Assembly: GCA_016184315.1 (NCBI GenBank)
Contig: JACPCU010000010.1
Coordinates: forward strand, 1-64,000
Source: Nitrososphaerota archaeon
Lineage (GTDB): Archaea; Thermoproteota; Nitrososphaeria; Nitrososphaerales; JACQRY01
Length of the DNA: 64,000 nt
Reading direction: 5' to 3'
This document shows positions 5,504 through 39,697 of the stretch, in pieces. How positions within the stretch are numbered: position 1 is the first letter of the stretch; every line of letters begins with the position of its first letter. The notes under the pieces are model-generated. The model made no database searches. It was given only the letters and a program-made list of their open reading frames with translations, and was not told the DNA's origin. Both the position numbers and the translations under genes were made by a program.

Positions 5504-5517
5504 CCTCCCTTACGACA

Positions 5518-5670: not shown

Positions 5671-5782
5671 CAGCCGTTACCGAGAAATCTATGTGCAGCC
5701 CTGACCTATATGTGTAAAGCAGACTACCAACCACAGCTCTCTAACATCATCTAGCATCAAAGGTCAACAGTTAAATATACAC

Positions 5783-5803
5783 ATGACAAAAACGTCATAT
5801 GAC
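5783..5803 (+). promoter_or_regulatory. candidate operator for the ArsR-family regulator
   Basis: Perfect dyad ATGAC-N6-GTCAT (5783-5798) followed by overlapping palindrome GTCATATGAC (5794-5803), just downstream of TATA-like TTAAATATAC and overlapping the start codon. Confidence 0.55.
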
Positions 5804-6128
5804 ATCGCAGTCAACTGAATGGAGCACATCCCACTCACTCTTCTTTAAAGCATTAGCGAACCCGGCAAGAATGTCGATCATCAGCCTCTTACACACCAGC
5901 CAGAGGAGTGTCACAGAGATCTCAGACGAACTTGGCTTCGAGCAGACGATGGTTTCACATCATCTCAGATGCCTCTCCTTCTGTGGATTCGTCAAATCCA
6001 AACGAAAAGGAAAGAACATGATATACGCCCTCAACAAAGAAACCATAGTGCCGATACTAAAGATAGTTGAAAAACACTTGGAGAAATACGCGTCGAACCT
6101 ATACAGCTGCGACGCTCTGGAGCGATGA
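5799..6128 (+). CDS. ArsR-family HTH regulator, likely mer regulator
   Basis: FKALANPARMSIISLLHTSQRSVTEISDELGFEQTMVSHHLRCLSFCGFVKSKRKGKNMIYAL; immediately upstream of merA. Confidence 0.85.
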   Translation: MTSQSTEWSTSHSLFFKALANPARMSIISLLHTSQRSVTEISDELGFEQTMVSHHLRCLSFCGFVKSKRKGKNMIYALNKETIVPILKIVEKHLEKYASNLYSCDALER

Positions 6129-6162
6129 ATACAGAAAACACGCATAGGATCAGTGTCAAGAA

Positions 6163-7563
6163 ATGAAGAACCAATATGATTTCATCGTAATAGGAGGAGG
6201 CTCAGCAGGCTTCGGATGCGCAATCAAGGCTTCTGAGCTAGGCGCTTCCGTAGCTCTGATAGAAGGCGGAACTATAGGTGGAACATGTGTCAATGTGGGC
6301 TGTGTTCCCAGCAAGAGGCTTCTGACAGTCGGCGACGTGTATTACTATAGAGATCATGGCTATCGAGGCGTAGACCTCGACGCTCGCCCCCTACACCTTA
6401 GCTCAGTAATAAGGGAAAAAGACAGTCTTGTTCAAGATCTGAGGAACAAGAAATACACGGATGTTATCAACAGTCTACCTGACGCGACTTTCATCAAAGG
6501 TTCAGCAAGATTCCTCTCCAGAAACGAAGTTAAAGTAGACGGTAAGAAGATCAGGGGAAAACACTTCCTTATCGCCACAGGCTCTTCACCTCACATTCCT
6601 CCGTTCAAAGGCATCAGAGAAGTCAACTATCTAACCAACGTTGAAGCCTTGAGTCCGAGACGACGCCCAGACAGCCTGCTGATCATTGGTGGCAGAGCCC
6701 AAGCATTGGAATTCGCTCAGATGTATACTCATTTCGGGGCAAAAGTCACTGTACTGCAAAGAAGCAGCAGGATAATACCGGAGGAAGAACCTGAAATCTC
6801 AGACGCATTAAGAAGATACCTCGAAGAAGAGGGCATAGAGATTCACACGGGTGTAGAAATTAAGGAGGTCAGCGAAAGAAACGGCCTGAAAACCGTCTTA
6901 ACCATCTGCTGCGGCGAGAAAAAGGTGTACAGCGGCGAAGAGCTTCTGATAGCCACGGGGCGGACGCCGAATACCAGTGAACTAGGCCTCGAACACATCG
7001 GTGTTAAACTCAGAGAAGACGGAGCGGTCATAGTAGACAGCCGGATGAGAACATCTGTCACACACATCTGGGCCGGCGGCGACGTGACCGGACAACCAAT
7101 GCTTGAAACCGTAGCAGCCAAAGAAGGCGCCATAGCAGCCTACAACGCCTTATCACAGTCAAAGAGGAAGATGGATTTCAACTCGGTTCCCCACGCCGTA
7201 TTCACCATGCCGCAGGTCGCCAGCGTAGGTTTAACAGACGCAGAAGCGAATCTAAGCGGATTTGCTTGTGCATGCAACTGGATACCTATGTCCAGCGTTC
7301 CGAAGGCAAGGATCCTGGGTGACACCCGTGGACTCGTCAAACTAGTCATAGATCACAAGTCGAAGCGTATACTGGGAGTACACATACTTTCACCCATCGC
7401 AGCAGAAATGATCCATGAAGGAGTACTGGCAGTGAAATTCAAACTCACCGTCGATGATTTGATCGACACGGTTCATGTCTTCCCAACGATGTCCGAAGCA
7501 ATCAAGCTGGCTGCTCAATCATTTTACAGAGACATAGACAAAATGAGCTGCTGCACAGAATAG
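6163..7563 (+). CDS. merA: mercuric reductase
   Basis: FAD pyridine nucleotide-disulfide oxidoreductase; GGTCVNVGCVPSK redox motif and C-terminal SCC (MSCCTE) vicinal cysteines; no N-terminal NmerA domain. Confidence 0.9.
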   Translation: MKNQYDFIVIGGGSAGFGCAIKASELGASVALIEGGTIGGTCVNVGCVPSKRLLTVGDVYYYRDHGYRGVDLDARPLHLSSVIREKDSLVQDLRNKKYTDVINSLPDATFIKGSARFLSRNEVKVDGKKIRGKHFLIATGSSPHIPPFKGIREVNYLTNVEALSPRRRPDSLLIIGGRAQALEFAQMYTHFGAKVTVLQRSSRIIPEEEPEISDALRRYLEEEGIEIHTGVEIKEVSERNGLKTVLTICCGEKKVYSGEELLIATGRTPNTSELGLEHIGVKLREDGAVIVDSRMRTSVTHIWAGGDVTGQPMLETVAAKEGAIAAYNALSQSKRKMDFNSVPHAVFTMPQVASVGLTDAEANLSGFACACNWIPMSSVPKARILGDTRGLVKLVIDHKSKRILGVHILSPIAAEMIHEGVLAVKFKLTVDDLIDTVHVFPTMSEAIKLAAQSFYRDIDKMSCCTE

Positions 7564-7880
7564 GCGAAAATCGGCCTCCCATATCCACAAATCCAGAAGT
7601 TTCTGTTCGAAGACTAGTAAACACGCCTCTAACAATAATGGATAAAGCAACCGCAGAAGCTATTACAGAGAATTTTACCAAGAATAGCAACGGCACAGAA
7701 GCAGAACCGATTACCAGCAAAAAGAAAAGGAAACTGAATGACATAAAAACCTCGTGGACTCAAATTCCTCGTTCTTCCAGTAGGAGTAGATGCACTTGTA
7801 GACGAAGCCCTTGAATAAATCCTGTAGAGAGAAAATTCTAAGCCTTTGCCATATCGCTTGATGCGAAGTTTTCTCTTGGG

Positions 7881-8480
7881 TTAAGCCGGTGGAGATGAGG
7901 GCGGTGGCGGTGGAGGGCTCGGAGACTGCTCAGGGAGAGCGAAGAAAGCTATTGTTAGAAAGATTGCAGCAACGAAGATTATGATGAAGCCGATTAGTAT
8001 TATGGTTAGTGCCGCGCCTATTAGGAAGAGCAGTCCAGCAGTGTGGAAGTGGCCTATGTTCAGGCGAGAGGCGATAGTGTTGAAGCTCTTTCTAAGGAAG
8101 ACAGCTGAAACCAATGTGAAGACCCAGACAACGACCAGTCCGACGATGATACCGGCCATCAAGCCCATAAGCCCGGGGCCGCTCAAGTCACTTGGTACGA
8201 AACCGCCGCTACCAAAGGGCATCATGCCGGATCCTCCTATGAAGGATAGAACGCTAGCTGCGCCAACTACTATGCCGGCAACTATGCCAACGATGCTCAG
8301 TACGATTGCTATGAGCGCGTTGTTGAATATCGATTTGTCTACGAGGCTGTCGGAGAGGTATTTGACCGCCACGAGTACAAGGATGAATCCCACGATGCTG
8401 ATGACTGGGATGAAAGTGCCGATAAGAAGTAGTATGGATCCTATTCCGCCTAAAGATTTGGCTTGAGATAAAGTTCCCAT
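7881..8480 (-). CDS. DUF996-type membrane protein
   Basis: MGTLSQAKSLGGIGSILLLIGTFIPVISIVGFILVLVAVKYLSD; several TM helices; internal ATG preferred over 8552. Confidence 0.7.
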   Translation of the reverse strand: MGTLSQAKSLGGIGSILLLIGTFIPVISIVGFILVLVAVKYLSDSLVDKSIFNNALIAIVLSIVGIVAGIVVGAASVLSFIGGSGMMPFGSGGFVPSDLSGPGLMGLMAGIIVGLVVVWVFTLVSAVFLRKSFNTIASRLNIGHFHTAGLLFLIGAALTIILIGFIIIFVAAIFLTIAFFALPEQSPSPPPPPPSSPPA

Positions 8481-8602
8481 GTTGGCGTAGTTACGGCCTC
8501 TACTAAATATTCTTAGTGATCGGCAACAGACGATATCTGTAAATTCTGGCATCGGATAAGCATAATTTTAATATGCTGTACTTTGACACAAAAGTTTAGG
8601 TC

Positions 8603-8962
8603 ATGAAAGGTAGAATCTTTCTAATTCATTGGAATCAATCGGAGGCGGATGAATTCGCTGAGAAACTACGCTCAGAAGGATGGAAAGTCGACATCGAAGC
8701 CGAGGACGGTGCCCGAGCAGGCAAGATGATAAGAGCAGATCCACCAGATGCAGTTGTAATTTATCTGACTCGCCTGCCTTCGCATGGACGTGAAACCGCA
8801 GATTACCTGCGATCAGTGAAGACGACACGAAACATACCTATAGTCTTCGTGGATGGAAGGGAAGATGCTCTGGAAAAGACGAAGGTGAAGGTGGCTGACG
8901 CAGTATTTACCACATCGACGGAGCTGAAAAATGTCTTGGCAAATATTTCAAAACTTAGTTGA
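8603..8962 (+). CDS. stand-alone receiver-like protein lacking the canonical phosphoacceptor Asp
   Basis: CheY-like pattern IFLIHWNQSEADEFAEKLRSEGWKV...PDAVVIYLTRLPSHG; Tyr at the usual Asp position. Confidence 0.55.
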   Translation: MKGRIFLIHWNQSEADEFAEKLRSEGWKVDIEAEDGARAGKMIRADPPDAVVIYLTRLPSHGRETADYLRSVKTTRNIPIVFVDGREDALEKTKVKVADAVFTTSTELKNVLANISKLS

Positions 8963-9117
8963 TGAGGCGAACCATTCTTGACGCAGCGACTCCTACTGCG
9001 TCTAGGCGCAGTCCCAAGATAAGTTCTTCATAACGATATCAGTGTTTTTCCGGGAAATGTAAGCATAGGTTGTGTGCGATGTCTGACATGGTTTGCATAA
9101 GTACGTGATTCTTCTGT

Positions 9118-9175
9118 AAGTATACATGTTATGAATATACTTTCAATCATGAAAACAGAAATACAGGTTTTCTGT
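9118..9175 (+). promoter_or_regulatory. candidate rdhA regulatory region with two inverted repeats
   Basis: AAGTATA(9118-9124)-N11-TATACTT(9136-9142) and ACAGAAA(9155-9161)-N7-TTTCTGT(9169-9175). Confidence 0.45.
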
Positions 9176-9195
9176 ATACATATCATGTCTTCAGA

Positions 9196-10515
9196 TTGAC
9201 GGCGTCAAAAGGGTTGTCTCAGCAAGGTACCAAGAGGCGCGGCTTGCTGAAGGATTTGGTTCTAGGCGGTGCCTTAGCAGCGGTAGGAGCTTTTACCTTG
9301 CGTTCTGTAGTGGATGATAGACCAGTGCGAGCTAAGGCTCTGAGCACTACGGCGGCGGAGCTCTTCAAGGTTAAGCCCAACTTTAAGAGATTCGACCCTC
9401 GTAATACTGTTTTCAACAGGTCGTTCTGGGACAGCTCGTCAGCGGCTTACGGGGCTACGGCCAAACTGGACAGGGTCAAGCAAGAGAGGACGACGAGGAA
9501 AGATCCGGGCTACAGCCTGAGGGACTATGCGCTTACTAGGGCTATGATGCTTGTTCAGCAAGAGACAGATTCAGGAAAAGGGAATGCAAGGAGGGGTTTC
9601 TACTCTTGGGATCCGCTGTGGCCTGTGGACAGGATGAGCATGTACGAAACCAACCCCGAGAATGCTGCTAGAACTGTGAAGAGGGCTGCGAAGTACTTGG
9701 GTGCTGACCTCGTAGGAGTCTGCCAACTGGACAAACGGTGGGTTTACTCACATACCGAGGATGGTCGGCCCATCATGTTCGAGGATGTGGAGCAGTGGTA
9801 CGAGACTGAGAAGAAGTTGGTGATCCCTGAGAGCCACAAGTTTGTTGTGGTGATGGCGACTCGGATGTCTGCGGATTTGATGAAGTATTCTCCTCTTCTT
9901 CTTGAGGACGCGGAGGTCCAGTACGGTTATGAGAAGATGGCCGTGGTCGCAGGCAGGATGGCTGAGTTCATCAGGCAGCTCGGATACAATGCTCTCCCCA
10001 TGGGGAACGATACAGCGTTAAGCGTACCTTTGGCCATCGACGCAGGACTTGGCCAGTACGGGAGGATCACTAGGTTGGTGACACCGGAGTTTGGGCCTAG
10101 TATAAGGTTGGCCAAGATCTTCACAGATCTCCCTATGGAGACAGATAAGCCAATAGAATTTGGATTGACGGAGTTCTGCAATGCGTGCATGAAGTGTGTT
10201 GATGCCTGCCCCGTTCAAGCCCTACCCAAAGGTCCTCCGACGTGGGAAGGCCCCAGTAAGTCGAATATCTCAGGCGTATTGAAGTGGCAGCAGGATCCTG
10301 ACAAGTGTCTGGCATGGTGGAGCGTTGTGGGCACCGGGTGTGCCATCTGTATCAGATCCTGTCCGTGGAGCAACGGGATCATAAGGCACTCAACTATTGC
10401 GAGATTGGCCGTCCAGCGAGGCATTGCTCTTAACAACGCTATGCGTCCCGTAGATGATGTTCTTGGGTATGGAGTTTTGAAGGATCCTGAAGAGTTCTGG
10501 AGAGAGGAGTATTAG
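9196..10515 (+). CDS. rdhA: reductive dehalogenase catalytic subunit
   Basis: Twin-arginine leader KRRGLLKDLVLGGALAAVGAF; LVTPEFGPSIRLAKIFTDLPMETDKP; ferredoxin motifs CNACMKCVDACP and CAICIRSCPW; TTG start. Confidence 0.88.
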   Translation: MTASKGLSQQGTKRRGLLKDLVLGGALAAVGAFTLRSVVDDRPVRAKALSTTAAELFKVKPNFKRFDPRNTVFNRSFWDSSSAAYGATAKLDRVKQERTTRKDPGYSLRDYALTRAMMLVQQETDSGKGNARRGFYSWDPLWPVDRMSMYETNPENAARTVKRAAKYLGADLVGVCQLDKRWVYSHTEDGRPIMFEDVEQWYETEKKLVIPESHKFVVVMATRMSADLMKYSPLLLEDAEVQYGYEKMAVVAGRMAEFIRQLGYNALPMGNDTALSVPLAIDAGLGQYGRITRLVTPEFGPSIRLAKIFTDLPMETDKPIEFGLTEFCNACMKCVDACPVQALPKGPPTWEGPSKSNISGVLKWQQDPDKCLAWWSVVGTGCAICIRSCPWSNGIIRHSTIARLAVQRGIALNNAMRPVDDVLGYGVLKDPEEFWREEY

Positions 10516-10517
10516 AG

Positions 10518-10760
10518 TTGGGGCATTCCTCAGTAATGGCTTCTCTGCATTGGGTCGTGCATGAGACATGGGTAGTCATACTCTTACTTGTAGCCGGATT
10601 CAGCTGGCTGAATTTTCTAGAGCACGAGTACAGGGCGAGCCTGATCACTTTCATATCCGTCGTCTTTCTGATTCAAGGATGTATTGGGGGTCATCTCGTT
10701 TGGAGACGACTTCGCAAGAAGTTGCAGCATCTCCCTACTGTAACTGATTCGGAGGGATAA
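10518..10760 (+). CDS. rdhB: small membrane protein, putative reductive-dehalogenase anchor
   Basis: 80 aa, two TM segments, starts 3 nt after rdhA stop. Confidence 0.6.
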   Translation: MGHSSVMASLHWVVHETWVVILLLVAGFSWLNFLEHEYRASLITFISVVFLIQGCIGGHLVWRRLRKKLQHLPTVTDSEG

Positions 10761-10766
10761 GGATAG

Positions 10767-11942
10767 ATGAGGCGACACACTGGAAAGATCTTCGTTACCG
10801 TCTTCGTGGCAACTGTTTTTGCTTCAGCCTTTGCGACATCCTACACCGAGCATTGGTGGCGATACTCCCTATCGACTAGAGAGGTAGAGTTGAAGGCATC
10901 TGCCCCAGAGCCGATCAGGCTGACCAATTCTCCAATTAGGAAGATAGAGGCTGTGTGGAGCCCTGACGAGAGACGCATAGCATACGTGTCGGAGGAGCCT
11001 GAAGGGTCGAGCATTTGGGTGATGAATGGCGACCGAACACAAAAGAAGCAGCTGACACCTGCGAAGATGAATGCCCACTGGCCAAGATGGAGGCCAGACG
11101 GAGGAATGATAGCTTTCATGTCATATGCGGACAAGGCGCCAGACCTTTGGGTGATGTACAGTGATGGCCATGGGAAGACGAATCTAGCGAATGACACCTC
11201 TTCAGACAGTCCACCAGAATGGAGCCCCGATGGCTCCTTGATCACATATGAATCAAACAAAGCAGGGAACTGGGATGTATGGAGTGTATCAGTCGGCGGT
11301 GCTCACAGGAATCAGTTGACCACAAACCCAGCTGATGACCGGTATCCAACATGGAGCCCGGATGGGAAGAAGATTACGTTCGCATCTAACCGCTCTGGCA
11401 ACTTTGACATCTGGATCATGGATACTGATGGAAGTGGACAGAAACGGATCACCTCAGATCCTAGGGACGACATCAGGCCTAGGATAAGCCCCTTTGGAAA
11501 CCGCGTTGCGTATTTGTCCAATCAATCCGCGTATTGGCCGCAATACACTTTGGAGTATGGTGCGATCGAGGGAAGAACATGGTCCGTCCAAGTCGTTGAC
11601 CTGCAAGCTAAAGTGAAGGCATTTGACTATGTGCACAGCTGGCTGCTCCGGGACAGTGATTGGATAAGCTGGTCTCCTAACGGGAAAATCATCTTTCCCT
11701 CCTACGAAATCGCCATACAGTACGGCATATACATCAACATCATGTATCCTGCAATATTCATGTTGGATGTTGGTGATAAACCAGGCTTGGCTCGCGTTAG
11801 CCCGGCTGGTTGGGCCATCTTCGCCGTCAATTTGGGTTCACATGGTGTATTATTCATCTCCGAAGATAGACATGGATACAGAGACGTATATGTCTCGACA
11901 GTGGTATCAGCTCCCACGATCTCAGGCGCAGCTGGCTATTGA
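10767..11942 (+). CDS. secreted/anchored TolB-like beta-propeller (PD40 repeats)
   Basis: N-terminal TM then repeated xSPDGxxIxFxSNxxGxxDIWxM motifs. Confidence 0.8.
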   Translation: MRRHTGKIFVTVFVATVFASAFATSYTEHWWRYSLSTREVELKASAPEPIRLTNSPIRKIEAVWSPDERRIAYVSEEPEGSSIWVMNGDRTQKKQLTPAKMNAHWPRWRPDGGMIAFMSYADKAPDLWVMYSDGHGKTNLANDTSSDSPPEWSPDGSLITYESNKAGNWDVWSVSVGGAHRNQLTTNPADDRYPTWSPDGKKITFASNRSGNFDIWIMDTDGSGQKRITSDPRDDIRPRISPFGNRVAYLSNQSAYWPQYTLEYGAIEGRTWSVQVVDLQAKVKAFDYVHSWLLRDSDWISWSPNGKIIFPSYEIAIQYGIYINIMYPAIFMLDVGDKPGLARVSPAGWAIFAVNLGSHGVLFISEDRHGYRDVYVSTVVSAPTISGAAGY

Positions 11943-25502: not shown

Positions 25503-26324
25503 TTGTGGCACTGCGGATGCCCATTTATAACGGAGGGGAATGCTACTTCAGCAAGCGGTGGCTCATTGTCTGACGTCTCGGTTGCCAAAGCATTGTCATC
25601 CGATCTGAGTTGGCATATCCTAGACCTGCTAATGTCCAGTGAACTGTCAGCGCTGGAAATCGCCAATGCTCTGAGTGCAAAACCTTCTCTCGTTAAGCTT
25701 CATCTCAGAAAACTTGTTGAAGCAGGCATAGTAGTCTCCAAGGAAAATGCTCTTCCTGACGGCAAGACCATATGCATCTATAGACCAACCAACGATGCCA
25801 AGGCAGTCGGATTTCCCCCGAGGAACTATCAATTCTTGAGTGACGCACTAATTGAGGGACTGATACGCTCGCTCGGGGAAGACGCAGCAAGAACTATCCT
25901 CCGCGACATCGGAGAGCGCGCAGGAGAAGACACTGCTCACCTCCTTGTGTCAAAAACCGAAGTAACGAAATGGGATGCCAAGACATACGCAGAGCATTTC
26001 GTCAAGAACTTCATGTCGCAAATGAAGACCTACCCTAGGATAATTGAATTAGGTAATCATCACATAGTATACGAGCAGGCAAACTGCGTTTTCCTTGAAT
26101 TGGGGATCAAACGCCCAGGTTTAGTATGTGATGTTCTCGACCAGGCAGTTAGAGAAAGTATCGACAGAAAGCTCGGTGCTAACGAGTCCATACGGTTGTC
26201 CTGTATGGGTCACGGAGATCCCACATGCAAATACATGATAAAATGGAACTCTGAGCCAAACAAATCAGTCTCCAACCAAAGTTCACAGGTAAAGCGATAT
26301 GCTGAAAAACGCTCTAAGTTGTAG
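25503..26324 (+). CDS. ArsR-like HTH regulator with C-terminal V4R/ATC-hydrolase-like sensor domain
   Basis: Winged helix followed by SCMGHGDPTCKYMIKW; paralog of 37325-38029. Confidence 0.7.
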   Translation: MWHCGCPFITEGNATSASGGSLSDVSVAKALSSDLSWHILDLLMSSELSALEIANALSAKPSLVKLHLRKLVEAGIVVSKENALPDGKTICIYRPTNDAKAVGFPPRNYQFLSDALIEGLIRSLGEDAARTILRDIGERAGEDTAHLLVSKTEVTKWDAKTYAEHFVKNFMSQMKTYPRIIELGNHHIVYEQANCVFLELGIKRPGLVCDVLDQAVRESIDRKLGANESIRLSCMGHGDPTCKYMIKWNSEPNKSVSNQSSQVKRYAEKRSKL

Positions 26325-26773: not shown

Positions 26774-27583
26774 TTGGCCTCCAGATTGTCTAGGCGACGG
26801 TTCCTGCAGGGTGCAGCGGCCACAGGAGCAGCGGTGGTACTAGGGGGCATGGCAACAGGTGCCTTACCCGTCCCAAATCTACCTTTACCAGCGGATGGAC
26901 GGGATAAACGGGGTGTGCCGAACCGAAAGTGGGTCATGGCAATTGACTTAGAGCGATGCGACGGTTGCAAGAAGTGCACTGAGGCTTGTGTCGCGGAGCA
27001 CTTTGTTCCGCCAGGCCAAGAGTGGATCAGAGTGCTTGATGAACAATCTAGTCCTCAGGGCGGTGAACTGTACCTTCCGCGTCCTTGTATGCAGTGTGAA
27101 AATCCTCCTTGTGTGAAGGTTTGTCCAGTCGAGGCGACTTATCGCCGTGAGGATGGCGTAGTTCTCATAGATCATACTCGTTGCATAGGTTGCCGATTCT
27201 GTATGGCTGCTTGCCCTTACAACGCACGGTCATTCAACTGGTCTGAGCCTCCTCACAGTCCTGGTGAAAGGCTGATCAAATATTCCCCTGAATACCCTGT
27301 CCCCCACAGAGTGGGAACAGTTGAGAAATGCATGTTCTGCGCCCACCGAGTGAGCATGGGAAGGCTGCCGGCATGCGTAGAGGCCTGCACGAACGAGGGC
27401 ATGGGGGCCATCTTCTTTGGCGATAGGAATGAAGACGTTGTGACGAACGGCAAGGAGACTGTGAAATTCTCAGAGATGATTGAAAAGAGGCATGGTTACA
27501 GGTACAAGGAAGAATTCGGAACTCATCCGCGAGTTCTCTATCTTCCAGCAGGGCCAGCCCATGTCCATAAAAAGAGAGCGTGA
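26774..27583 (+). CDS. Tat-exported 4Fe-4S protein (TtrB/PsrB/DmsB-like)
   Basis: SRRRFLQGAAATGAAVVLGG Tat leader; CDGCKKCTEAC, CMQCENPPCVKVCP, CIGCRFCMAACPYNAR, CMFC...C motifs. Confidence 0.9.
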   Translation: MASRLSRRRFLQGAAATGAAVVLGGMATGALPVPNLPLPADGRDKRGVPNRKWVMAIDLERCDGCKKCTEACVAEHFVPPGQEWIRVLDEQSSPQGGELYLPRPCMQCENPPCVKVCPVEATYRREDGVVLIDHTRCIGCRFCMAACPYNARSFNWSEPPHSPGERLIKYSPEYPVPHRVGTVEKCMFCAHRVSMGRLPACVEACTNEGMGAIFFGDRNEDVVTNGKETVKFSEMIEKRHGYRYKEEFGTHPRVLYLPAGPAHVHKKRA

Positions 27584-28917
27584 GTTTGGTAATGAAACAT
27601 TCTTCTGATCAGTTAAGCGATCCACTGATGCTTCCGCTCCAGAAGACAGGCGTTAACTTCTACCTGTTTGTAGCAGCGCTTGCAGCAATAGTGGGGTGGG
27701 GCCTCTACGCATACTCAACCCAGCTCAAAGACGGTTTAGCAACCACAGGAATGAGGGATCTCGTAAGCTGGGGAGTCTACATCTCCAATTTCGTCTTCTT
27801 CATAGGAATAAGCCATGCGGGCACTCTCATCTCAGCCATTCTCAGGGTTACGAATGCCGATTGGAGAAGGCCTGTAACACGAATGGCTGAAGCAATCACA
27901 GTCATGGCTCTAATGATAGGAGCACTATTCCCCATAATTGATCTGGGCAGACCAGAAAGGATGCTCAATCTTCTCATGTATGGAAGAATAGACTCACCCA
28001 TAGTCTGGGATCTGATCTCTATCTCGACATACTTGACTGGAAGCATGATCTACCTTTACCTTCCTCTAATCCCAGACATAGCACATTACCGAGACAACCT
28101 CCAGAACACTTCTTGGTGGCGTAAGCGTCTCTACCGTATTCTCTCCTTGGGTTGGAAGGGAACCGAGGAGCAGAAGAAGAATTTGGAGCGGGGAATCAGC
28201 GTCATGGCTATCATAATTATACCTGTCGCAGTCTCTGTGCACACAGTCGTCTCATGGATCTTCGGAATGACGCTAAGGGTGGGATGGAGAAGCAGCATCT
28301 TCGGACCATACTTCGTAGTCGGCGCCATCTTCACAGGAATAGCTTCAATCATCGTGGCTATGGCCGCCTTCAGAAAGATCTACCACCTAGAATCCTACAT
28401 CACATACCAACACTTCAAGAACCTAGGGTTATTGCTGCTTGTCCTTGACATAGCATACATCTACTTCACCATCAACGAGTATCTGACAGCTCTCTACAAC
28501 GCCACTGATTCGGAGCTGCATCTTCTCTCTGCTCTAATATTCGGCCCATACTCACTCGATTTCTGGTTCTTCGCGGTAGGAGGCCTAATCATCCCTGCGG
28601 TTATCATTGCTGTGCCTGCTACAAGAACAATAGGAGGCTTGGTCATTGCATCCATCCTAGTCAACATCGCTCTATGGTTTAAGCGCTATGTAATAGTAAT
28701 CCCTACCATGGCGAATCCTCAGCTACCAATAGGATGGGGGCAGTATGCACCCACATGGGTCGAATGGTCCATAACAGCAGCCTCCATCGCCGGCTTCATC
28801 CTACTATTCACCGTGTTCTCAAAGGTCTTCACAATAGTCTCCATCTGGGAGGTCAGCGAAGGGGCTGAAGGGCAACCGAACGCCGTCGGCAAGGGCCATA
28901 AAGGAGGGAACGCGTAA
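27580..28917 (+). CDS. NrfD/PsrC-family membrane protein
   Basis: Polytopic; WGVYISNFVFFIGISHAGTLISAILRV and PIIDLGRPERMLNLLMYGR motifs. Confidence 0.9.
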   Translation: MSLVMKHSSDQLSDPLMLPLQKTGVNFYLFVAALAAIVGWGLYAYSTQLKDGLATTGMRDLVSWGVYISNFVFFIGISHAGTLISAILRVTNADWRRPVTRMAEAITVMALMIGALFPIIDLGRPERMLNLLMYGRIDSPIVWDLISISTYLTGSMIYLYLPLIPDIAHYRDNLQNTSWWRKRLYRILSLGWKGTEEQKKNLERGISVMAIIIIPVAVSVHTVVSWIFGMTLRVGWRSSIFGPYFVVGAIFTGIASIIVAMAAFRKIYHLESYITYQHFKNLGLLLLVLDIAYIYFTINEYLTALYNATDSELHLLSALIFGPYSLDFWFFAVGGLIIPAVIIAVPATRTIGGLVIASILVNIALWFKRYVIVIPTMANPQLPIGWGQYAPTWVEWSITAASIAGFILLFTVFSKVFTIVSIWEVSEGAEGQPNAVGKGHKGGNA

Positions 28918-29942
28918 TGAGTCGAGCCACCAGAACACTCTTGTTATTCATTCTAGCTTCCTCACTAACACTTGGCTCAAGCCAGCTGCAACTGGTCAAC
29001 CCGATGCTGCCTATGGCAGAAGCCCAAGCAGCCACTCAAGCAAAGAACCTCGTCTTCCTAGTCTCCGCAGAAGGATTCAACAAAACAAAGGACCTATCAA
29101 TAACGGTGAACGAAGGTGACCTTGTCCAAATAAAACTTGTCTACGATGACGACTATATAGGAGACAACCCCCACACAATAAGGGTCCAAGGCTACGGCGT
29201 TGAAGGAACAGTTGGCCCCAAACAGAGAGAAGTCACGCTAACCTTCAGAGCAACCGAAACAGGCTCATTCAAGGTAGTCTGCGGAAATGAAACATGCGAA
29301 GGTCATGAAAACCTCCAAGGATTTGTCATCGAAGTTAAGGCGCCAGACAAACCCACAGGAGCAAAACCTGAACCAGGAGCACCCGAATTACAGAAACCAG
29401 CTGTGCGTCCCAATCTCGCCTTCTCCGTTTCATTTCCGAAAATAATACGCCAAGGCTACGCTCTTGCAATTCAAGCAAAGATGCTGGATTCAGAAGGGAC
29501 ACCCATAGCCGGGTTTCCAATCACCTTCTACACCAACAGCACTTGGGGGCCAGTTAAGATCGGCAGCGCATACGCTAACGCTTCCGGTGTAGCAGTACTA
29601 GCCTATACGCCTGCTAGGGAAGGAGTATTTCAATTCGCAGCACGTTTTGAAGGTGCAAAAGGATTCGAAGCTGCATCAGCTGAACCCGTGATCAAGATTC
29701 TTCCCTCGCTCACAACCCTGCCAGACAACGAGCCGATACTAGGAATCAAAGGATCAGTAGTCGCAATGGTCGGGTTGGTCATAGCATCCGTTTGGGCAAC
29801 CTACGCCTACGTTCTAAGCAGACTGTTTCGGATAGCTACGGCCAAGACAACACCAACTCAACACGGAGAATCTGGTAAGCCTAGCGAGGGCAGGACAACC
29901 GTGCCCGGGATAAGAGCTGGACGCCTAGAAGAAGCCTCCTGA
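28917..29942 (+). CDS. cupredoxin domain plus Ig-like domain, C-terminal TM
   Basis: NPHTIRVQGYG ... FKVVCGNETCEGHENLQGFVIEV; C-terminal hydrophobic anchor. Confidence 0.75.
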   Translation: MSRATRTLLLFILASSLTLGSSQLQLVNPMLPMAEAQAATQAKNLVFLVSAEGFNKTKDLSITVNEGDLVQIKLVYDDDYIGDNPHTIRVQGYGVEGTVGPKQREVTLTFRATETGSFKVVCGNETCEGHENLQGFVIEVKAPDKPTGAKPEPGAPELQKPAVRPNLAFSVSFPKIIRQGYALAIQAKMLDSEGTPIAGFPITFYTNSTWGPVKIGSAYANASGVAVLAYTPAREGVFQFAARFEGAKGFEAASAEPVIKILPSLTTLPDNEPILGIKGSVVAMVGLVIASVWATYAYVLSRLFRIATAKTTPTQHGESGKPSEGRTTVPGIRAGRLEEAS

Positions 29943-29949
29943 CGAGCCT

Positions 29950-31431
29950 GTGAAACTCAGGCGAAACGCCTACAGACGGCGTCGAGGCGAATATATAGTG
30001 AAAGTGTCGCCGAACACAGAAAGACTACCCGTCACACCATTCCTCATACTGGCGTTTCTGTTGATGTCAGCACTAGCAGCAGTGCCCAACGTGCTGGCAC
30101 AAGCCGCGCCCACACTAACTGTCGAAAAGCCGTTTGTTAATCTGGGCATGGAGACATCAATAATCGTCAAGGCACCCGCAGCAGGAACATACACCGTAGT
30201 TATCACCAAGCCCGATGGCAAGACCCAAGTCCAAGCAGACTACAGCTTTGCTCAAGCAGGAGAGGCAAAGCAGATTTATGGAAATGCAACGCTTGGCTTC
30301 AAGAGCATAATCGACAAGACAGGGACATACAAAGTCTCCTTACAGAGCCAAAGTAAACAGGTCGCAGAAACAACCCTCTTCGCAACGGACAAGCTAGATC
30401 TCGATGTCACAGTGGCTAATGCTGGAACAACCGATAACGTCTGCTACCTATCAAACCAGTTCACTAGGGGCACAAGTATAATCCCGCGTATCTACATAAG
30501 ATACGCATCGACAGGTGAATACGTCACAGCCAAGAACGCACCCAACACGGTAGCAACCTTCAACATGCCCAACGGTACCAAGATGGTTGCCCGTTTCGCA
30601 GCATATCTACCGCCTGAAGGAGCTTGGAGAAACTGCTTCAGGCCCAACTGGAACGACTACGCAGGTGTGTGGAACATAGTTGCAGAGGCACAAGACGGAA
30701 AGGGCAACTACGGCAAATACGAAAGCTACCCTCAGATAAAATCAGGAGCAAACGTACTGAGATTCGGATTCGAAGTAATACCTGCTCCGCTGACAGTCAC
30801 CCCTCAGATCATTGATGCAGCCACAGGGAAGCCTGCTACAACAGCTCTCAAAAGCGGGCAGAACCTACGGATCGAAGCCAAAGTAACATACGATCATCCC
30901 CTTGGGCCACTAGGCAGAGAGACTGCTGTCGGATACATAGGACTACTCAATGCTTCACGAGGAGGAGTTGTCATTGCCAAGCTGGGATGGGGCTTCTATA
31001 ACCAAACCAGCAAGAGCTTCGGAGGATCCAACCAAGCAAAGAATCCTGGTGGACTAATAGCCAATGTCCCGTTGTCTTACGACCAGGCATCAGGACGGTG
31101 GACAGGCACATACGCAGCAACAGGCTCAGAACCAAAAGGTGACTACCTGTTGATCGTAGACTCCAGAGACAGCGCGAGTCCGCCAAACACAGGAATAGGC
31201 ACGGCAAAGCTAGCACCACCTGTTGAAACCGTGGAGAAAGTTGTAGAGAAGACCACTACAACAACGGTCGAGAAGACTGCTACAGCAACGGTGGAGAAAC
31301 CAGTGGATAGGTTCGTAGAAAAACCCGTACAGATCACCAGTGAAATCATACCTCTATGGGCATATGGCGTGATGGGAGCATTACTCGTAGTAGGGGTCGT
31401 CGTAGGCAGAGTTGTTTGGAGGAAGAAGTAA
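29950..31431 (+). CDS. surface protein, type A (Ig-like, C-terminal stalk and TM)
   Basis: Signal peptide, beta-rich body, VEK-rich stalk, C-terminal TM + RKK; paralog of 33222-34190. Confidence 0.7.
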   Translation: MKLRRNAYRRRRGEYIVKVSPNTERLPVTPFLILAFLLMSALAAVPNVLAQAAPTLTVEKPFVNLGMETSIIVKAPAAGTYTVVITKPDGKTQVQADYSFAQAGEAKQIYGNATLGFKSIIDKTGTYKVSLQSQSKQVAETTLFATDKLDLDVTVANAGTTDNVCYLSNQFTRGTSIIPRIYIRYASTGEYVTAKNAPNTVATFNMPNGTKMVARFAAYLPPEGAWRNCFRPNWNDYAGVWNIVAEAQDGKGNYGKYESYPQIKSGANVLRFGFEVIPAPLTVTPQIIDAATGKPATTALKSGQNLRIEAKVTYDHPLGPLGRETAVGYIGLLNASRGGVVIAKLGWGFYNQTSKSFGGSNQAKNPGGLIANVPLSYDQASGRWTGTYAATGSEPKGDYLLIVDSRDSASPPNTGIGTAKLAPPVETVEKVVEKTTTTTVEKTATATVEKPVDRFVEKPVQITSEIIPLWAYGVMGALLVVGVVVGRVVWRKK

Positions 31432-33235
31432 GATGATGACCCCCACTATTTTTTCTCGCAGTAGGGCTCTAGAACAGGGCAAAATAGTCGCACTCAGCGT
31501 TCTGTCAGTGATTCTCCTAGCTTACGCAACTCTGGGACAAGCTTATGGAGCTAGCACCAGTGAGCCAGCTCAGACCATATCTCTGACTCCTAATGAAGGC
31601 ATCCCCGGCACAGACCTAACCGTCGCCGGCAAAGGCTTCAAGCCGCTGTCAAACATTGAACTTGTTTGGACGGGTGTAAAAGGAGAATTCAAGGTAAAAG
31701 AGGAAAAATTCCAGGGAAGGGTCTTTACTCCTGACAACCAAGTACTCAAATCCGTCACTGCAGACAATTCAGGAGTATTCACCGCAAACATTCAGGCTCC
31801 CCGTGATCACGGCGGTCTTCACAATGTAGAAGCCAAAGTAGTGGGAGAAAACATCAAAGCCGTTGGAAGCTTCAAAATACTACCAACCTTTGAGATCACA
31901 CCTCTAAAGGGCAAGTCGAATACAAAGATCACCATAACCGGACACGGCTTACCCAACGGGGAATTCACCAGCACTTGGACCGTCCTCTACGATAATGTGC
32001 TGGTAGGATACGGAACCGGAATAACCACGAAGGGCGATGTCATAATGGAGATATGGGGTTCAGGTGAACCCGGCGTTCACCGCATCGAAATCATACAGGG
32101 ATTCACAGGAACTCCCTACCTCAATCCTCAACAGTCAAGGAACCAAAACCCCATCTTCCGATTCGACTTCACAGTCGAAGGAGACGGAGTACCAGACATA
32201 CTCAAGAACCCCGCATCATATGCAGTCACCGGCATCGCGTTAGCCTCAGTAGCAGCAGTAGTGCAAGTGTCGTCTAACGGAAAGCAAGAGAAGATCAAAC
32301 GAGGTCGCATACTCAAGGCCAGCACAGCAATAGCAATCATACTCTCATTACTCGGAGCTGCATTCACACTGCTCCCAATCTCAGCCGAAGCCCAAGACAA
32401 AGACATACAGATTCCACAAGTAACTCTACCAACATCAAAAGGCGTCTCAGCAGTCCCTCAGCCCTCAAGCTCCAAAACAGGACCCATACTATCCGTCACA
32501 CCAGAAAAAGGCGTAGTAGGTTCAGTAGCTGAAATCACCGGAAAAGGCTTCCAGCCTAACACAAAGGTGGACTTACTCTGGTTCAGAATGGTCGGTGACA
32601 GAACCGTCACAAGAGGATGGTCAGAGAAGAGTATACCAGTAGGCTCAGTCGTCACCACGCCTGAAGGCACCCTTACATCAAGCTTCACAATACCATATGA
32701 TCTAGGAGGTCCCCCACACCGAGTATCAGCAGTCACGGGCAAGCAGACCCTCGCCAACGCAACATACACCATCGAAAGGAACGCCGTCATGACACCCACA
32801 AGAGGTCCACCTGGCACCTTAGTGAAACTTGAGATCACAGGAATAGGCTGGACTGAATACGACAACATAGTCACCTTGAACTATGACAACGCTCACCTAG
32901 GCTATGCATGTGGCTTCCAAAGTCAAGGCAACGTAACCATATACTTCAGGGCAACCGGGAACCCCGGAACACACAAAGTTGACCTCTACCCTGCCATCTA
33001 CGATGGTCCATACGGAGGAATCGCAGCACCTTACCGACTGACACTCCTGAGCATCAATGACCATCCGACACCGTTCCCAGTGCTCCACTTCGAGTTCACA
33101 GTAACCGAGGGAAAAGACAACCTCGCCTACAACCCTAGCCTCTACAGTCTCCTAGGTTTCTCGACTTCAGTACTCGCCGTGGGAATGACGCTGGTAGGAA
33201 ATGGAAAAACAGTGAGGAGGCATGCGCCAGACTGA
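31412..33235 (+). CDS. surface protein, type B (two IPT/TIG-like halves separated by TM segments)
   Basis: Two repeats with TPxxGxPGTxxxxxGxGF and LYDNxxVGYxxG; paralog of 34187-36055. Confidence 0.7.
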   Translation: MFGGRSKMMTPTIFSRSRALEQGKIVALSVLSVILLAYATLGQAYGASTSEPAQTISLTPNEGIPGTDLTVAGKGFKPLSNIELVWTGVKGEFKVKEEKFQGRVFTPDNQVLKSVTADNSGVFTANIQAPRDHGGLHNVEAKVVGENIKAVGSFKILPTFEITPLKGKSNTKITITGHGLPNGEFTSTWTVLYDNVLVGYGTGITTKGDVIMEIWGSGEPGVHRIEIIQGFTGTPYLNPQQSRNQNPIFRFDFTVEGDGVPDILKNPASYAVTGIALASVAAVVQVSSNGKQEKIKRGRILKASTAIAIILSLLGAAFTLLPISAEAQDKDIQIPQVTLPTSKGVSAVPQPSSSKTGPILSVTPEKGVVGSVAEITGKGFQPNTKVDLLWFRMVGDRTVTRGWSEKSIPVGSVVTTPEGTLTSSFTIPYDLGGPPHRVSAVTGKQTLANATYTIERNAVMTPTRGPPGTLVKLEITGIGWTEYDNIVTLNYDNAHLGYACGFQSQGNVTIYFRATGNPGTHKVDLYPAIYDGPYGGIAAPYRLTLLSINDHPTPFPVLHFEFTVTEGKDNLAYNPSLYSLLGFSTSVLAVGMTLVGNGKTVRRHAPD

Positions 33236-34190
33236 CCTAGCGGTCCTCCTCGCATTATTTATCATCATGGCAACAGCCACATTTGAAAGGACGGCTGACG
33301 CTGTCGAGCAGCAAACAGGGAAAAGCTCCAGTGACGAGCTTGTAATTTCTGTTGATGCTGCAAGCTACATAGGAAGATGCATCCGCACCACAGAGTTCTC
33401 CAGAGGAGACACTATTGTCTTCAGGATCAACATCACTTACGCGTCTACAAATGCCAGAATGGAAGAGGGGCGGGTGAACATCCACCTCTCCAACGGGGAA
33501 ACATTACAAGCTTCCTTCGTACAGAAAGGCTGGATTACCAATCACCCACTCTGGAAGTATTGCTATAATATCTCATGGGACGCAACTGGCGGAGTACTCA
33601 GATACTATGTTACCGCGCAGGATAACAAAGGGAACTTCGCAGTCTGGAAGCCTTCCTCTGTAGATCAATCCGAACTCGGAATAAGGCCGGTGAAACTGCT
33701 TGTTCAAGCGTCTCTGAGTGATTATGCGACGGGAAACCCCATAACAAGCTCGGCGCAAACCGGGCAAGGCATAGCGATCAGAGCGAGAGCCCAATACCCA
33801 GACATAAACGACTTGAACGGAACAAAAACTCTTCCAAGCATTCTAACCAGCAGAGAAGGTGGAGCAGTCACCGCATCTCTGTATCCATCGTCCGATGCTT
33901 CAAAGCCTAGTCTATCACCCGTGACCACCGCGAAGCTTGACTATTCACCAGATGAAGGAGACTGGAGAGGCACCCTTAACCTCCCTGACAAGATGCAATC
34001 CGGCAACTACACCATCTCTATTGAAGCCTCAGATGGAGCAGGCTCTCCTAACAAAGGTCTTATCGCCATAAAAGACATCAGGATAGATTCTGCACCTAAC
34101 GGTCCCATCATAGGCCTTGAGGGTGTCTATCTTGCCGTCTTGGGACTCATCGTCGCCGGAGCGGTTATCAAGGTTGGTGGAAAGAAATGA
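33222..34190 (+). CDS. surface protein, type A paralog
   Basis: ITYAST..., NGETLQASFVQ..., VTAQDNKGNFAVWK; C-terminal TM VYLAVLGLIVAGAVIKVGGKK. Confidence 0.68.
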   Translation: MRQTDLAVLLALFIIMATATFERTADAVEQQTGKSSSDELVISVDAASYIGRCIRTTEFSRGDTIVFRINITYASTNARMEEGRVNIHLSNGETLQASFVQKGWITNHPLWKYCYNISWDATGGVLRYYVTAQDNKGNFAVWKPSSVDQSELGIRPVKLLVQASLSDYATGNPITSSAQTGQGIAIRARAQYPDINDLNGTKTLPSILTSREGGAVTASLYPSSDASKPSLSPVTTAKLDYSPDEGDWRGTLNLPDKMQSGNYTISIEASDGAGSPNKGLIAIKDIRIDSAPNGPIIGLEGVYLAVLGLIVAGAVIKVGGKK

Positions 34191-36055
34191 GAGTGAATCC
34201 ATCATTTGCCGCTACATTAGCTCTCCTTTTGGCACTAATCTACGTAGGGTCAGTAATCCCAGCTGACGCCCAAACCAGTTCTCAGATTCTCACCTCTCCA
34301 GATTCAGGTCCCGTGGGAACCCCGATAACGATGACTGGTCAAGGTTTCCCCCCATCTACGACCCTCAACATTTACTGGGAGACATTAAAGGGAGAATGGG
34401 TATTACCACGTCCCCAAGCAGAGTCGGATCCATCGATAGGACACGAACATGAACAGGATATGTTCCCCGGTGAAGCCCTTATCTTCCACGGCCACGACTT
34501 TCTCGGTTCCTCCTTTACCCTGCACAGATACGTAATCGCATCCATCAAATCCGATGCTTCAGGCTCGTTCAGTTTCAGTTTGAAGGCACCCTACGATTTC
34601 GGTGGACGCCACTGGATGATCGTGACAGACAAAGATAACAGTGCCGAACTCTCAAAAGCAGTCTTCACGATTCTCCCATCCTTCAGCGTTTCCCCGAACG
34701 AGGGTTCTCCCGGCACGGCGATAACCATACGGGCCTCAGGTTTGGGTTACGGCATTTACTCCACCAACTACCATGTGTTATGGGACAACAAGTATGTAGG
34801 ATATGCTAGCGCAGTTACCACCCAAGGCAACGCTACCTTCACGATCTACGCAGCTGGCGACTTGGGAAAACACTTCATCGATATCTACGAGGGCTACCCA
34901 GGTCCAGCATACCTTAACATCCAAGAGGCACCACAGAACCCACTGTATTATAACCCACCCTACATCCCGTTCCACACAGAGTTTACGATAACACCATCAA
35001 GAAACGTAGAAGGCAACAAGACTGCTGAGACGCTTTCTCTCGTTTCGCTGGGGACTCTTATGGCCGGGCTACTGATAGCACCATTAGCACAGAGACGACA
35101 CGGTCAGACCTCTAGGAGATCGATAATACCCACAATAATCATCATAACCGCATTGATACTGGCTGGAACCACGCTCTCAGCCATGAATACCATATCAGTA
35201 TCAGCCCAACCTCAACCCAAGTCCTCTGAACTCCGACCCCAATTCAACCTTTCCGCACAAGTAACATCAAACAGTTCAGTGACTGGTGGCTCCGCCATCC
35301 TGTCAGTGAACCCCGTAGTCGCAACCGTAGGAAGCAGCATTACAATCACAGGTTCAGGGCTCCCATCGGCAGCGAACATGGATTTACTCTGGTCGACCAA
35401 GAAGGGCAGCTATCTGAGAGGCTGGGATGACGTAGTCTTACCACTAGGATCAGTGACGACCGATTCCAACGGTAAATTCTCCTTCAACATGAAGGTTCCG
35501 CACGACTTGGAAGGAATGCATGAGATTAGCGTCAAATCAAAAGACGTCGGATCGAATGTTAAGAACACAGGCATCTACATTACAAGGAGTGCAACGATCA
35601 GCCCCAACAAAGGGCCATCAGGAACAAATATTGAAGTAAAGATGACGGGTGTAGGATGGACATTCGTTACTAACATAGTCACTGTCCTATATGACAACAC
35701 GTTTGTAGGCTATGCATGCGGATTCAACAGTCTCGGCAACGTAACCCTATCGATTAAGGCTGTTGGGAAACCCGGTATACACACCATAGACATTTACCCG
35801 TCGATATACGATGGACCACCTCAAGGCAAGGCCAACAGCATTTACAGGTATCCTCTTCTCACGCCTCAAGACCATCCTGTTCGTAGCCCCGCGTTTCACT
35901 TCGAGTTTATCATAACCGAATCGGATCAACAATCTGGGGACAACACCGTACTCACCCCGCAGAGCCTAAGCATAGGCATCATAGCCGTCGGTGTAGTCTC
36001 ACTGATCATGCATAACAGATCTACTCTGCAAACTAGCCAAAGGAGGTCTATATGA
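34187..36055 (+). CDS. surface protein, type B paralog with His-rich insertion
   Basis: Same two-half architecture as 31412-33235; GHEHEQDMFPGEALIFHGHD insertion in the first half. Confidence 0.7.
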   Translation: MRVNPSFAATLALLLALIYVGSVIPADAQTSSQILTSPDSGPVGTPITMTGQGFPPSTTLNIYWETLKGEWVLPRPQAESDPSIGHEHEQDMFPGEALIFHGHDFLGSSFTLHRYVIASIKSDASGSFSFSLKAPYDFGGRHWMIVTDKDNSAELSKAVFTILPSFSVSPNEGSPGTAITIRASGLGYGIYSTNYHVLWDNKYVGYASAVTTQGNATFTIYAAGDLGKHFIDIYEGYPGPAYLNIQEAPQNPLYYNPPYIPFHTEFTITPSRNVEGNKTAETLSLVSLGTLMAGLLIAPLAQRRHGQTSRRSIIPTIIIITALILAGTTLSAMNTISVSAQPQPKSSELRPQFNLSAQVTSNSSVTGGSAILSVNPVVATVGSSITITGSGLPSAANMDLLWSTKKGSYLRGWDDVVLPLGSVTTDSNGKFSFNMKVPHDLEGMHEISVKSKDVGSNVKNTGIYITRSATISPNKGPSGTNIEVKMTGVGWTFVTNIVTVLYDNTFVGYACGFNSLGNVTLSIKAVGKPGIHTIDIYPSIYDGPPQGKANSIYRYPLLTPQDHPVRSPAFHFEFIITESDQQSGDNTVLTPQSLSIGIIAVGVVSLIMHNRSTLQTSQRRSI

Positions 36056-36630
36056 CTGGTGTAATATCGCAGCGAAGAAGGTTCATCTACCTTGTTTTCC
36101 TCATAGCTTTAAGCACAGGTCTCTTCGCGTCCAACTCCCAATTCTTCCTCAGATCCAGCTTCAACCCCATTCTAGCAGTGAATTGGATACCGTTTGGCGC
36201 GGCTACAGAGGAAAAGATCCGTGCCCCTAACTTCTGCCTCACCGACATAGAAGGATCCCAATTCTGTTTGGAGGAATTCAGGGGAAGGGTGGTCTTGATC
36301 GACTTGATGGCCACATGGTGTATAGCGTGCGAGGATCAAGCGTTGCAGCTGAAGGATGTGTATGAGAAGTATAGTAGCAAAGGAGTGGTGTTCATATCGG
36401 TTAGTGTTGACGTAGGCGAATATCCTAGAGATGTAAAAGGATTCAGAGACTATATAGGCGCAGAATGGAGGTTCGCCATAGATACTCTTACAACCAGAGT
36501 CGGCCTCAAATATGAATCAAAATATCTGCCGACGTTATACTTGGTCGACAAGAACGGCTTCATAGTTTGGAGTGAAAAGGGGGTTACAGATGCAGCCACA
36601 TTGAGCAAACTCCTCGACAAATATGTGTGA
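36052..36630 (+). CDS. TlpA/ResA-like thioredoxin-fold protein
   Basis: N-terminal TM; CLEEFRGRVVLIDLMATWCIACEDQALQLKDVYEKYSSKGVVFISVSVD; LPTLYLVDKNGFIVW. Confidence 0.88.
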   Translation: MTGVISQRRRFIYLVFLIALSTGLFASNSQFFLRSSFNPILAVNWIPFGAATEEKIRAPNFCLTDIEGSQFCLEEFRGRVVLIDLMATWCIACEDQALQLKDVYEKYSSKGVVFISVSVDVGEYPRDVKGFRDYIGAEWRFAIDTLTTRVGLKYESKYLPTLYLVDKNGFIVWSEKGVTDAATLSKLLDKYV

Positions 36631-36636
36631 AGAACC

Positions 36637-37320
36637 TTGGATCCCACACTCGCTTACCTAGCACTTGGCGCCGGAGTACTTTCAATGCTTTCTCCCTGCA
36701 ACATAGCCATGATTCCATCCTACATCTCAGCTGGTGTAGTGTCAAGTGAAAAGCATGGAGAAACATCTAGCCGCAGAACTGCTGTAACAAGTCTTGTTGA
36801 TAGTGGAGCTGCTACGCTCGGTCTCATGTCAATAATTGCTCCTCTTGGGCTGGTATTAGCTCTATCCTTTAGAGCAATCATTAATCTCCTTCCAATAACT
36901 TCTATCGCCATCAGTTTGGGGCTTCTATTTATGGGCGGTCTGATGATTCTCGATATACCCAATCCTTTGATGAGGACTTTACCCTTGAGGTTGCCACACG
37001 GTGGAGGACCGTTGCAATTCTATCTCCTAGGAGCTGCACTTGGAACGCTTTCGCTGAGCTGCACGCTGCCCGTTTTCCTCATGGTCATGAGTTATGCAGC
37101 TGTAGTGGGCAGCTTGGGTGAAGCAGCGTTTGCATTAGCTATGTATGCTGTCGGGATTGCTCTGGTGCTTATCATATTATCAGTGGCAGCTAACAGCTCA
37201 AGATCATTCACAGTAGGGATTCGCAGGAATCTTGCTCCCTATCTCAATATTTTGGCTGGCAGCCTAGTCACCATAATCGCGATATACATGCTGATGTACC
37301 AGCTTTATCATCTGGTCTGA
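36637..37320 (+). CDS. CcdA/DsbD-like transmembrane thiol-disulfide interchange protein
   Basis: GVLSMLSPCNIAMIPSYIS and GTLSLSCTLPVFLMVMSYA; 6 TM. Confidence 0.85.
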   Translation: MDPTLAYLALGAGVLSMLSPCNIAMIPSYISAGVVSSEKHGETSSRRTAVTSLVDSGAATLGLMSIIAPLGLVLALSFRAIINLLPITSIAISLGLLFMGGLMILDIPNPLMRTLPLRLPHGGGPLQFYLLGAALGTLSLSCTLPVFLMVMSYAAVVGSLGEAAFALAMYAVGIALVLIILSVAANSSRSFTVGIRRNLAPYLNILAGSLVTIIAIYMLMYQLYHLV

Positions 37321-37324
37321 GAAG

Positions 37325-38029
37325 CTACTTCACGCTATCTTTCCGTGGCCAGTTTACGTGAAACTTGCACACAGGGTCTCCGTGGGCTCTACACTTGAGT
37401 CGGACAGTCTTCATCCCGCCGAGCTTCTTGTCCAGACCTTCGTGAACCGCTTCATCTAGGACATCGCACATCAACGTCGGGTACTTGACTGAAAGCTCTT
37501 CGAAGGGGCAGTTCTTTTGCTGGTAAATGACTCTGTCTTCTTCTACTTTGATAACTTTGGGATATGTCTGCATATCCACAAGAAGACCCTTTATGACAAC
37601 ATCGGCATAGTTCCTTGGAGCCCACTCAGTGAAACTAGTCTTGGAGCGCAAGCTATGGCCAATATCTTCGACTATACGAATTCCCATGTCGCGGAGCACT
37701 GTTTTGGCAGCATCATCCCCCAGAGATACCGTCAGATAGTTGATCAATGCGTCACACAAGAACAAGTAGTTCCGCGGTGGAACTTCAATGGATTTGTGAG
37801 TGCTGGCTAGGCCGTAAAGAGTTGTTTCCTTGCCATTTGGAAGTGTTTTTTCTTTTGCGACTAATATGCCTGACTCGATGAGTTTCCTGAGGTGGAGCTT
37901 GACAAGAGCAGGGGGAAAACCGACATGGCTAATGATTTCTTTCTCTTCCAGCTCTTTACGCATAAGGATTTCCAGAATCTTCCAACTGATCTCAGATGAC
38001 AGCGCCTTAGCCATCGCTACCTTGGACAA
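37325..38029 (-). CDS. ArsR-like HTH regulator with V4R/ATC-hydrolase-like sensor domain
   Basis: SKVAMAKALSSEISWKILEILMRKE...CRAHGDPVCKFHVNW; paralog of 25503-26324. Confidence 0.7.
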   Translation of the reverse strand: MSKVAMAKALSSEISWKILEILMRKELEEKEIISHVGFPPALVKLHLRKLIESGILVAKEKTLPNGKETTLYGLASTHKSIEVPPRNYLFLCDALINYLTVSLGDDAAKTVLRDMGIRIVEDIGHSLRSKTSFTEWAPRNYADVVIKGLLVDMQTYPKVIKVEEDRVIYQQKNCPFEELSVKYPTLMCDVLDEAVHEGLDKKLGGMKTVRLKCRAHGDPVCKFHVNWPRKDSVK

Positions 38030-39238: not shown

Positions 39239-39697
39239 TCAGACGGCCGTGAATAGTGTTGATCTACCTTCTCTTAACATGTAGATCTTGAAGGGCTCGA
39301 CTTTGACGCCGGGCATTCCGGGTGCGCCGGGAGGCATGTGGGGAAGTGTGATTCCGTCGATGCTGGGCTTCTCGGCTAAGAGTTTCTTTATGGCTTCGAC
39401 TGGGACATGTCCTTCAACAAAGTAGTTTCCTATGGTTGAAGTGTGGCAGCTTTGAGATGACTGCGGGATTCGGTAGCTCTCTTTTATGGGCTGTAGGTCT
39501 TGGACGATTACGACTTTGACTTTGAATCCTTGTTGCTCCAAGTAACGGGCGTATGATGAGCAGCAGTCGCAGGTCGGTTCTTTGATCAAAGTTATGTCTA
39601 GGTCAGTCTTCGGAGCAGCTGATCCAGCTGTCAGTGCGAGGACCGTTATTAGCAGGGAAACGAAACCTAATCCTATGACAATGTTCTTCTGTTTCAA
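39239..39697 (-). CDS. DUF411-family (metal/copper-associated) protein
   Basis: Signal peptide; LIKEPTCDCCSSYARYLEQQGFKVKVV; SCHTSTIGNYFVEGHVPVEAIKKLL. Confidence 0.88.
   Translation of the reverse strand: MKQKNIVIGLGFVSLLITVLALTAGSAAPKTDLDITLIKEPTCDCCSSYARYLEQQGFKVKVVIVQDLQPIKESYRIPQSSQSCHTSTIGNYFVEGHVPVEAIKKLLAEKPSIDGITLPHMPPGAPGMPGVKVEPFKIYMLREGRSTLFTAV

Follow-up and report, generated by a model that had tools for sequence, protein, structure and literature searches.

A candidate molybdopterin-free quinone:cupredoxin oxidoreductase resembling part of alternative complex III in a Nitrososphaerota archaeon

What electron transfer might an exported iron–sulfur (FeS) protein and an NrfD membrane protein carry out when no molybdopterin gene lies within their cluster? 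This question is raised by positions 26774-37320 of a 64,000-nucleotide stretch, hereafter the window, from contig JACPCU010000010.1 of a Nitrososphaerota archaeon (assembly GCA_016184315.1), a metagenome-assembled genome (MAG) that is 92% complete and in which genome-wide checks were made by family searches. The open reading frame (ORF) list places nine ORFs, here designated A to I, on the plus strand across this interval, one more than the eight counted in a first-pass annotation, whose coordinates and content were otherwise right. As that annotation described, the genes are co-directional and mostly overlapping: adjacent ORFs share 1-20 bases, except at short gaps at 29943-29949 and 36631-36636. 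Gene order is kept in other genomes, including Chloroflexi, and the cluster is therefore not a chance arrangement. Our analysis indicates that A, B and C probably form a minimal, molybdopterin-free quinone:cupredoxin oxidoreductase, similar to alternative complex III (ACIII), located at the outer side of the cytoplasmic membrane.

Protein A (26774..27583, 269 aa) carries a twin-arginine translocation (Tat) signal with the motif SRRRF, which is matched in Pfam, and 16 cysteines forming four 4Fe–4S sets, all of which are invariant in an alignment of six relatives. It narrowly exceeds the NCBIfam DsrO equivalog cut-off (206 bits versus 200) and matches the FeS part of ActB. Protein B (27580..28917) is an NrfD protein (PF03916, E 6e-36). 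An NrfD profile was built from six sequences of the same cluster type and searched against solved-structure chains; it retrieved four distinct ActC sequences at full length (E 5e-91 to 5e-82, with 6f0k_C at 5e-91), ActF as a weak match only, and no PsrC chain below 0.01. By this profile, the nearest solved structure to B is ActC of ACIII, and the Psr/Dms-like character first assigned to the NrfD gives way to an ActC-like one. Among the residues that have been put forward as quinone site and gate of ActC (PMC8076601), S164, D169 and R395 align with S139, D144 and R369 of B, so that the quinone-site Ser and one Asp are kept, along with the Arg of transmembrane helix (TMH) 8, and D121 occupies the position of ActC H139, an Asp for a His. 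Because the NrfD profile finds ActC and A matches the FeS part of ActB, the A–B core resembles the FeS/ActC half of ACIII without its molybdopterin-like part.

The likeness to ACIII thus comprises a full-length ActC-like NrfD, an FeS protein matching the ActB FeS domain, a predicted quinone link and an outward orientation. In contrast to ACIII, the cluster lacks the ActB molybdopterin-like domain, A being an FeS protein only, as well as the pentahaem ActA, any other c-type haem subunit and ActD/E/F, with a cupredoxin protein anchored by an immunoglobulin-like (Ig) domain and a transmembrane (TM) helix in the place of the carrier; it contains one NrfD and no ActF, the remaining NrfD matches of the genome lying on other contigs. 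PsrABC, DmsABC and TtrABC share the two-subunit FeS–NrfD plan, but their molybdopterin catalytic subunit is absent from the cluster, and PsrC was not found among the NrfD profile matches. DsrOP of the DsrMKJOP complex is comparable in that A passes the DsrO model and the FeS–NrfD pair is free of molybdenum cofactor (Moco), whereas B scores 125 bits against a DsrP cut-off of 350 and no DsrM, DsrK or DsrJ occurs among the cluster genes. DsrMKJOP was rejected on the failed DsrP model and the absence of any dsrA (TIGR02064) match in the same genome. Moco-free FeS–NrfD pairs are already known in DsrOP, NrfCD and HybAB; such a pair alone is therefore not new, contrary to what the first-pass annotation implied.

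The third gene, C (28917..29942), encodes a protein with a signal peptide, in which a cupredoxin domain and an Ig-like domain are followed by a TM anchor at the C-terminus. Pfam gives weak matches to cupredoxin and Big_1, and NCBIfam a match to the NosZ CuA domain (E 2.6e-4); the predicted structure shows a cupredoxin domain (predicted local distance difference test, pLDDT, about 63-89) next to an Ig-like domain and ends in a helix, in agreement with the cupredoxin–Ig protein initially proposed. The CuA cupredoxin domains of NosZ and COX2 are among its best fold matches (3.3-4.3 Å over about 100 residues), and NosZ is also the nearest NCBIfam model. The putative copper ligands His86, Cys122, Cys127 and His130 are conserved in most aligned relatives. 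Unlike those CuA domains, C carries the motif C-x4-C-x2-H-x2-L-Q without a Met, the axial residue being Leu or Gln, and the catalytic propeller of NosZ is missing.

Comparison with other genomes bears on whether a catalytic subunit has simply been overlooked. A scan of genome contigs yielded a best set of 80 loci from many phyla, with best-segment identities of 49-63%; these, together with loci found earlier, gave 84 NrfD genes of close score for classification. At 31 loci, all lacking the Ig-TM protein, the FeS–NrfD pair has a molybdopterin-type gene nearby that encodes about 800 aa; the Ig-TM protein is present and the molybdopterin-type gene absent at 49; and the remaining four, truncated by contig ends, have neither. 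The two genes never occur together among the 84, and a PsrA/DmsA/TtrA-type gene, whose consistent presence in orthologous clusters would have argued for a conventional enzyme, is never found in the Ig-TM type. Since this split requires just 2 changes on the tree, it is a clade-level pattern and does not amount to 80 independent events. The classified loci themselves served to build the Ig-TM model; genome G188 (locus L173), which did not contribute to it, likewise has this order and a cupredoxin C. At eight loci (seven Acidobacteria and one Gemmatimonadetes), NrfD continues at its C-terminus into the Ig-TM part as a single fused protein, which argues for a physical complex.

The archaeon's own 2 Mb genome contains 14 molybdopterin-family matches (L046-L059), many near 850 aa, and no type-A FeS gene was detected close to any of them. 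These proteins could be candidates for a scheme in which the catalytic partner of A–B, of molybdopterin or another type, is encoded at an unlinked site, C and D to G being unrelated surface proteins. None of the 14, in a genome only 92% complete, has a Tat signal, whereas A does; this agrees with the absence of a molybdopterin subunit noted at the outset. Considering also the fusion of the C-type anchor to NrfD in Acidobacteria and the mutual exclusion of Moco gene and Ig-TM protein in relatives, we regard the scheme as highly improbable. A Psr/Dms-type complex with its catalytic gene missing was likewise rejected, given that exclusivity and the finding of no exported Moco protein among the 14 matches.

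Across the Ig-TM loci, motifs and alignments show a conserved Ig domain and TM helix beneath an N-terminal domain that varies. The anchor bears a cupredoxin in the window and in L029, L043, L031, L112, L075, L076 and L173, a monohaem cytochrome c in many Chloroflexi, a DOMON domain in L030, L032, L077, L079, L093 and L121, and a CxCH domain in L078 and L084. One cytochrome and one DOMON case, the two tested, were confirmed by Pfam (cytochrome CBB3, E 3e-12; DOMON, E 4e-17). The carrier domain has changed at least 8 times on the tree, which we read as an Ig-TM anchor that presents whichever electron carrier a lineage uses. Consistent with a lineage-specific carrier, no CcmF/CcsA-type gene (PF01578) was found in the archaeon's own genome, G017 or G028, a small sample of three genomes that all have a cupredoxin C.

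Several relatives are distinctive in their own right. The archaeon's own genome encodes a second module of this type (L043, G000:C24, 9075-14024), preceded by an additional small cupredoxin and having an NrfD frame extended to 654 aa, in the order seen in the Calditenuaceae locus L112 and in L173 of G188; its C protein has a Met at the position of the second His in others. In the loci L084 and L078 (about 4600-11400) of two Thermoplasmata-type MAGs, the module is preceded by genes for an eight-CxxCH cytochrome and a split cytochrome b.

For A–B–C we infer a complex in which B would bind quinol or quinone close to the outer surface, the exported A would connect NrfD outwards, and the cupredoxin domain of C, tethered to the membrane through its Ig-like domain and TM helix, would accept or donate single electrons. 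The most likely direction would be from quinol to the cupredoxin of C and on to soluble cupredoxins serving a CuA oxidase. The genome encodes an aerobic chain comprising Rieske protein, cytochrome b, cupredoxins and a COX1/COX2 operon (Rieske, COX2 and cupredoxins being assigned from sequence), and this chain offers an acceptor for the cupredoxin of C. The path from quinone through NrfD and FeS to copper, already put forward in the first-pass annotation, remains the best reading.

Several observations weigh against it. A Rieske–cytochrome b complex is already encoded, and a second such quinol oxidase is not obviously needed; a role as a substitute for a missing bc complex was rejected because the genome has genes for both cytochrome b and a Rieske protein. 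I227 of B replaces D253, an Asp of the proposed ActC quinone site. The copper motif of C departs both from strict CuA (C-x3-C-x3-H-x2-M) and from standard type 1 spacing, and the carrier domain of C is largely or wholly missing in at least four relatives (L094, L105, L106 and L130). Moreover, the similarly built Qrc complex works in the opposite direction (PMC13059093).

As proposed for the present cluster, QrcABCD uses an exported FeS protein and an NrfD to link an outside carrier protein to the quinone pool, and by analogy an outside donor could reduce the cupredoxin, with electrons passing through FeS and NrfD into the pool. The Asp at position 121 of B, shared with QrcD, PsrC_W and DsrP where ActC has His, is compatible with such reverse flow, and the EB_dh and pyrroloquinoline quinone (PQQ)-type propeller proteins encoded after the core in genome G028 could be donors. 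However, the NrfD is far more ActC-like than QrcD-like, reaching 59 bits on the QrcD model against a cut-off of 570, the QrcC model is likewise missed (142 of 400 bits), QrcA and QrcB were not seen, and the cupredoxin-using aerobic chain could take up the electrons. Reverse flow is accordingly a possible but rather unlikely alternative to quinol oxidation.

Downstream of this core lie four large proteins, D to G. D (29950..31431) is an Ig-like protein with a TM anchor and F (33222..34190) is its second copy, 25% identical over 299 aa; E (31412..33235; TIG, E 1e-5) and G (34187..36055; TIG, E 5e-8) are tandem IPT/TIG proteins, 34% identical over 594 aa. Sequence comparison identifies D/F and E/G as duplicated pairs, as the earlier description of four duplicated surface proteins held. 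In the Chloroflexi loci L076 and L086, the order is A, B, cupredoxin C, D/F and E/G, with lipoprotein-like relatives of F in the same slot as in the window; in L086, the C gene is in pieces and A was not called as an intact ORF. Of 398 genomes from the phylum, just one, that of this archaeon, was found to have the E/G family, which thus falls outside the general module, while in G028 the slot after the core is filled by the EB_dh and PQQ-type propeller proteins instead. Both observations point to D to G as an accessory layer, which may constitute an outer Ig/IPT scaffold belonging to the A–B–C complex.

A more active role, conducting electrons to outside acceptors, would be in keeping with the export of D to G, their conservation alongside the core in Chloroflexi and the EB_dh-type proteins in the G028 slot. 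The D to G sequences showed no haem, FeS or copper motif, however, the predicted structure of F gives Ig-like matches only, at modest to low confidence, and the E/G family, seen in one genome in 398, lies outside the general module; extracellular electron transfer therefore appears very doubtful. The F model, at that confidence, also led us to reject a hidden enzyme in D/F, and no redox motif in D to G gave any sign of a new catalytic subunit among the Ig-like proteins. The rarity of E/G in the phylum and the shared order with Chloroflexi may suggest horizontal transfer of the operon between the two lineages, but composition is uniform.

The cluster ends with H (36052..36630), a TlpA/ResA-like membrane thioredoxin with a WCIAC motif (AhpC-TSA, E 4e-16; ResA, E 5e-22), and I (36637..37320), a CcdA-type membrane thiol transporter (DsbD_TM, E 9e-6, 25.6 bits, just below the cut-off of 27.1). 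Domain searches thus agree with the initial identification of the Tat FeS protein, NrfD, TlpA and CcdA, the last just under threshold. In Bradyrhizobium, TlpA reduces the copper chaperone ScoI and COX II ahead of metallation (PMC6696091). By analogy, the TlpA–CcdA pair probably keeps copper-site cysteines reduced for metallation, a role we prefer to cytochrome c maturation, which is unlikely here because no PF01578 gene was found in the genome. In both G004 and G030, relatives of the pair do adjoin a distant NrfD, and the G030 contig also holds PF01578 genes.

Two paralogous regulators bracket the cluster: R1 (25503..26324, plus strand), an ArsR-type helix-turn-helix (HTH) protein with a Cys-rich C-terminal domain identified by NCBIfam and sequence comparison, and R2 (37325..38029, minus strand), 50% identical to R1 over 227 aa and with weak MetOD1/ATC_hydrolase and HTH_5 matches. 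Members of this family lie near modules in L077, L093, L040 and L041. Farther along, 39239-39697 on the minus strand encodes an exported protein of 152 aa with CDCC and SCH motifs, which we take to resemble DUF411, a family often found near copper genes.

Among the papers examined, none was found to describe this locus or a layout of this sort joining NrfD to cupredoxin, to DOMON or to archaeal blue copper proteins. The cluster is a variant on the NrfD complex plan and not a complex of a new kind. The chances seem evenly balanced that it represents an undescribed and widely distributed family of archaeal and bacterial respiratory complexes, in which an FeS protein, an ActC-like NrfD and an Ig-TM anchor would be combined with a plug-in carrier (cupredoxin, cytochrome c, DOMON or CxCH) exchanged many times, one type bearing an outer Ig/IPT assembly common to an archaeon and Chloroflexi. 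These findings suggest that the quinone-reactive FeS/NrfD module of ACIII can work without the molybdopterin-like subunit and that its outward carrier is modular, providing a natural experiment on electron handover in ACIII. They also offer a candidate for a second quinol:copper-protein oxidoreductase in archaea that seemingly lack cytochrome c.
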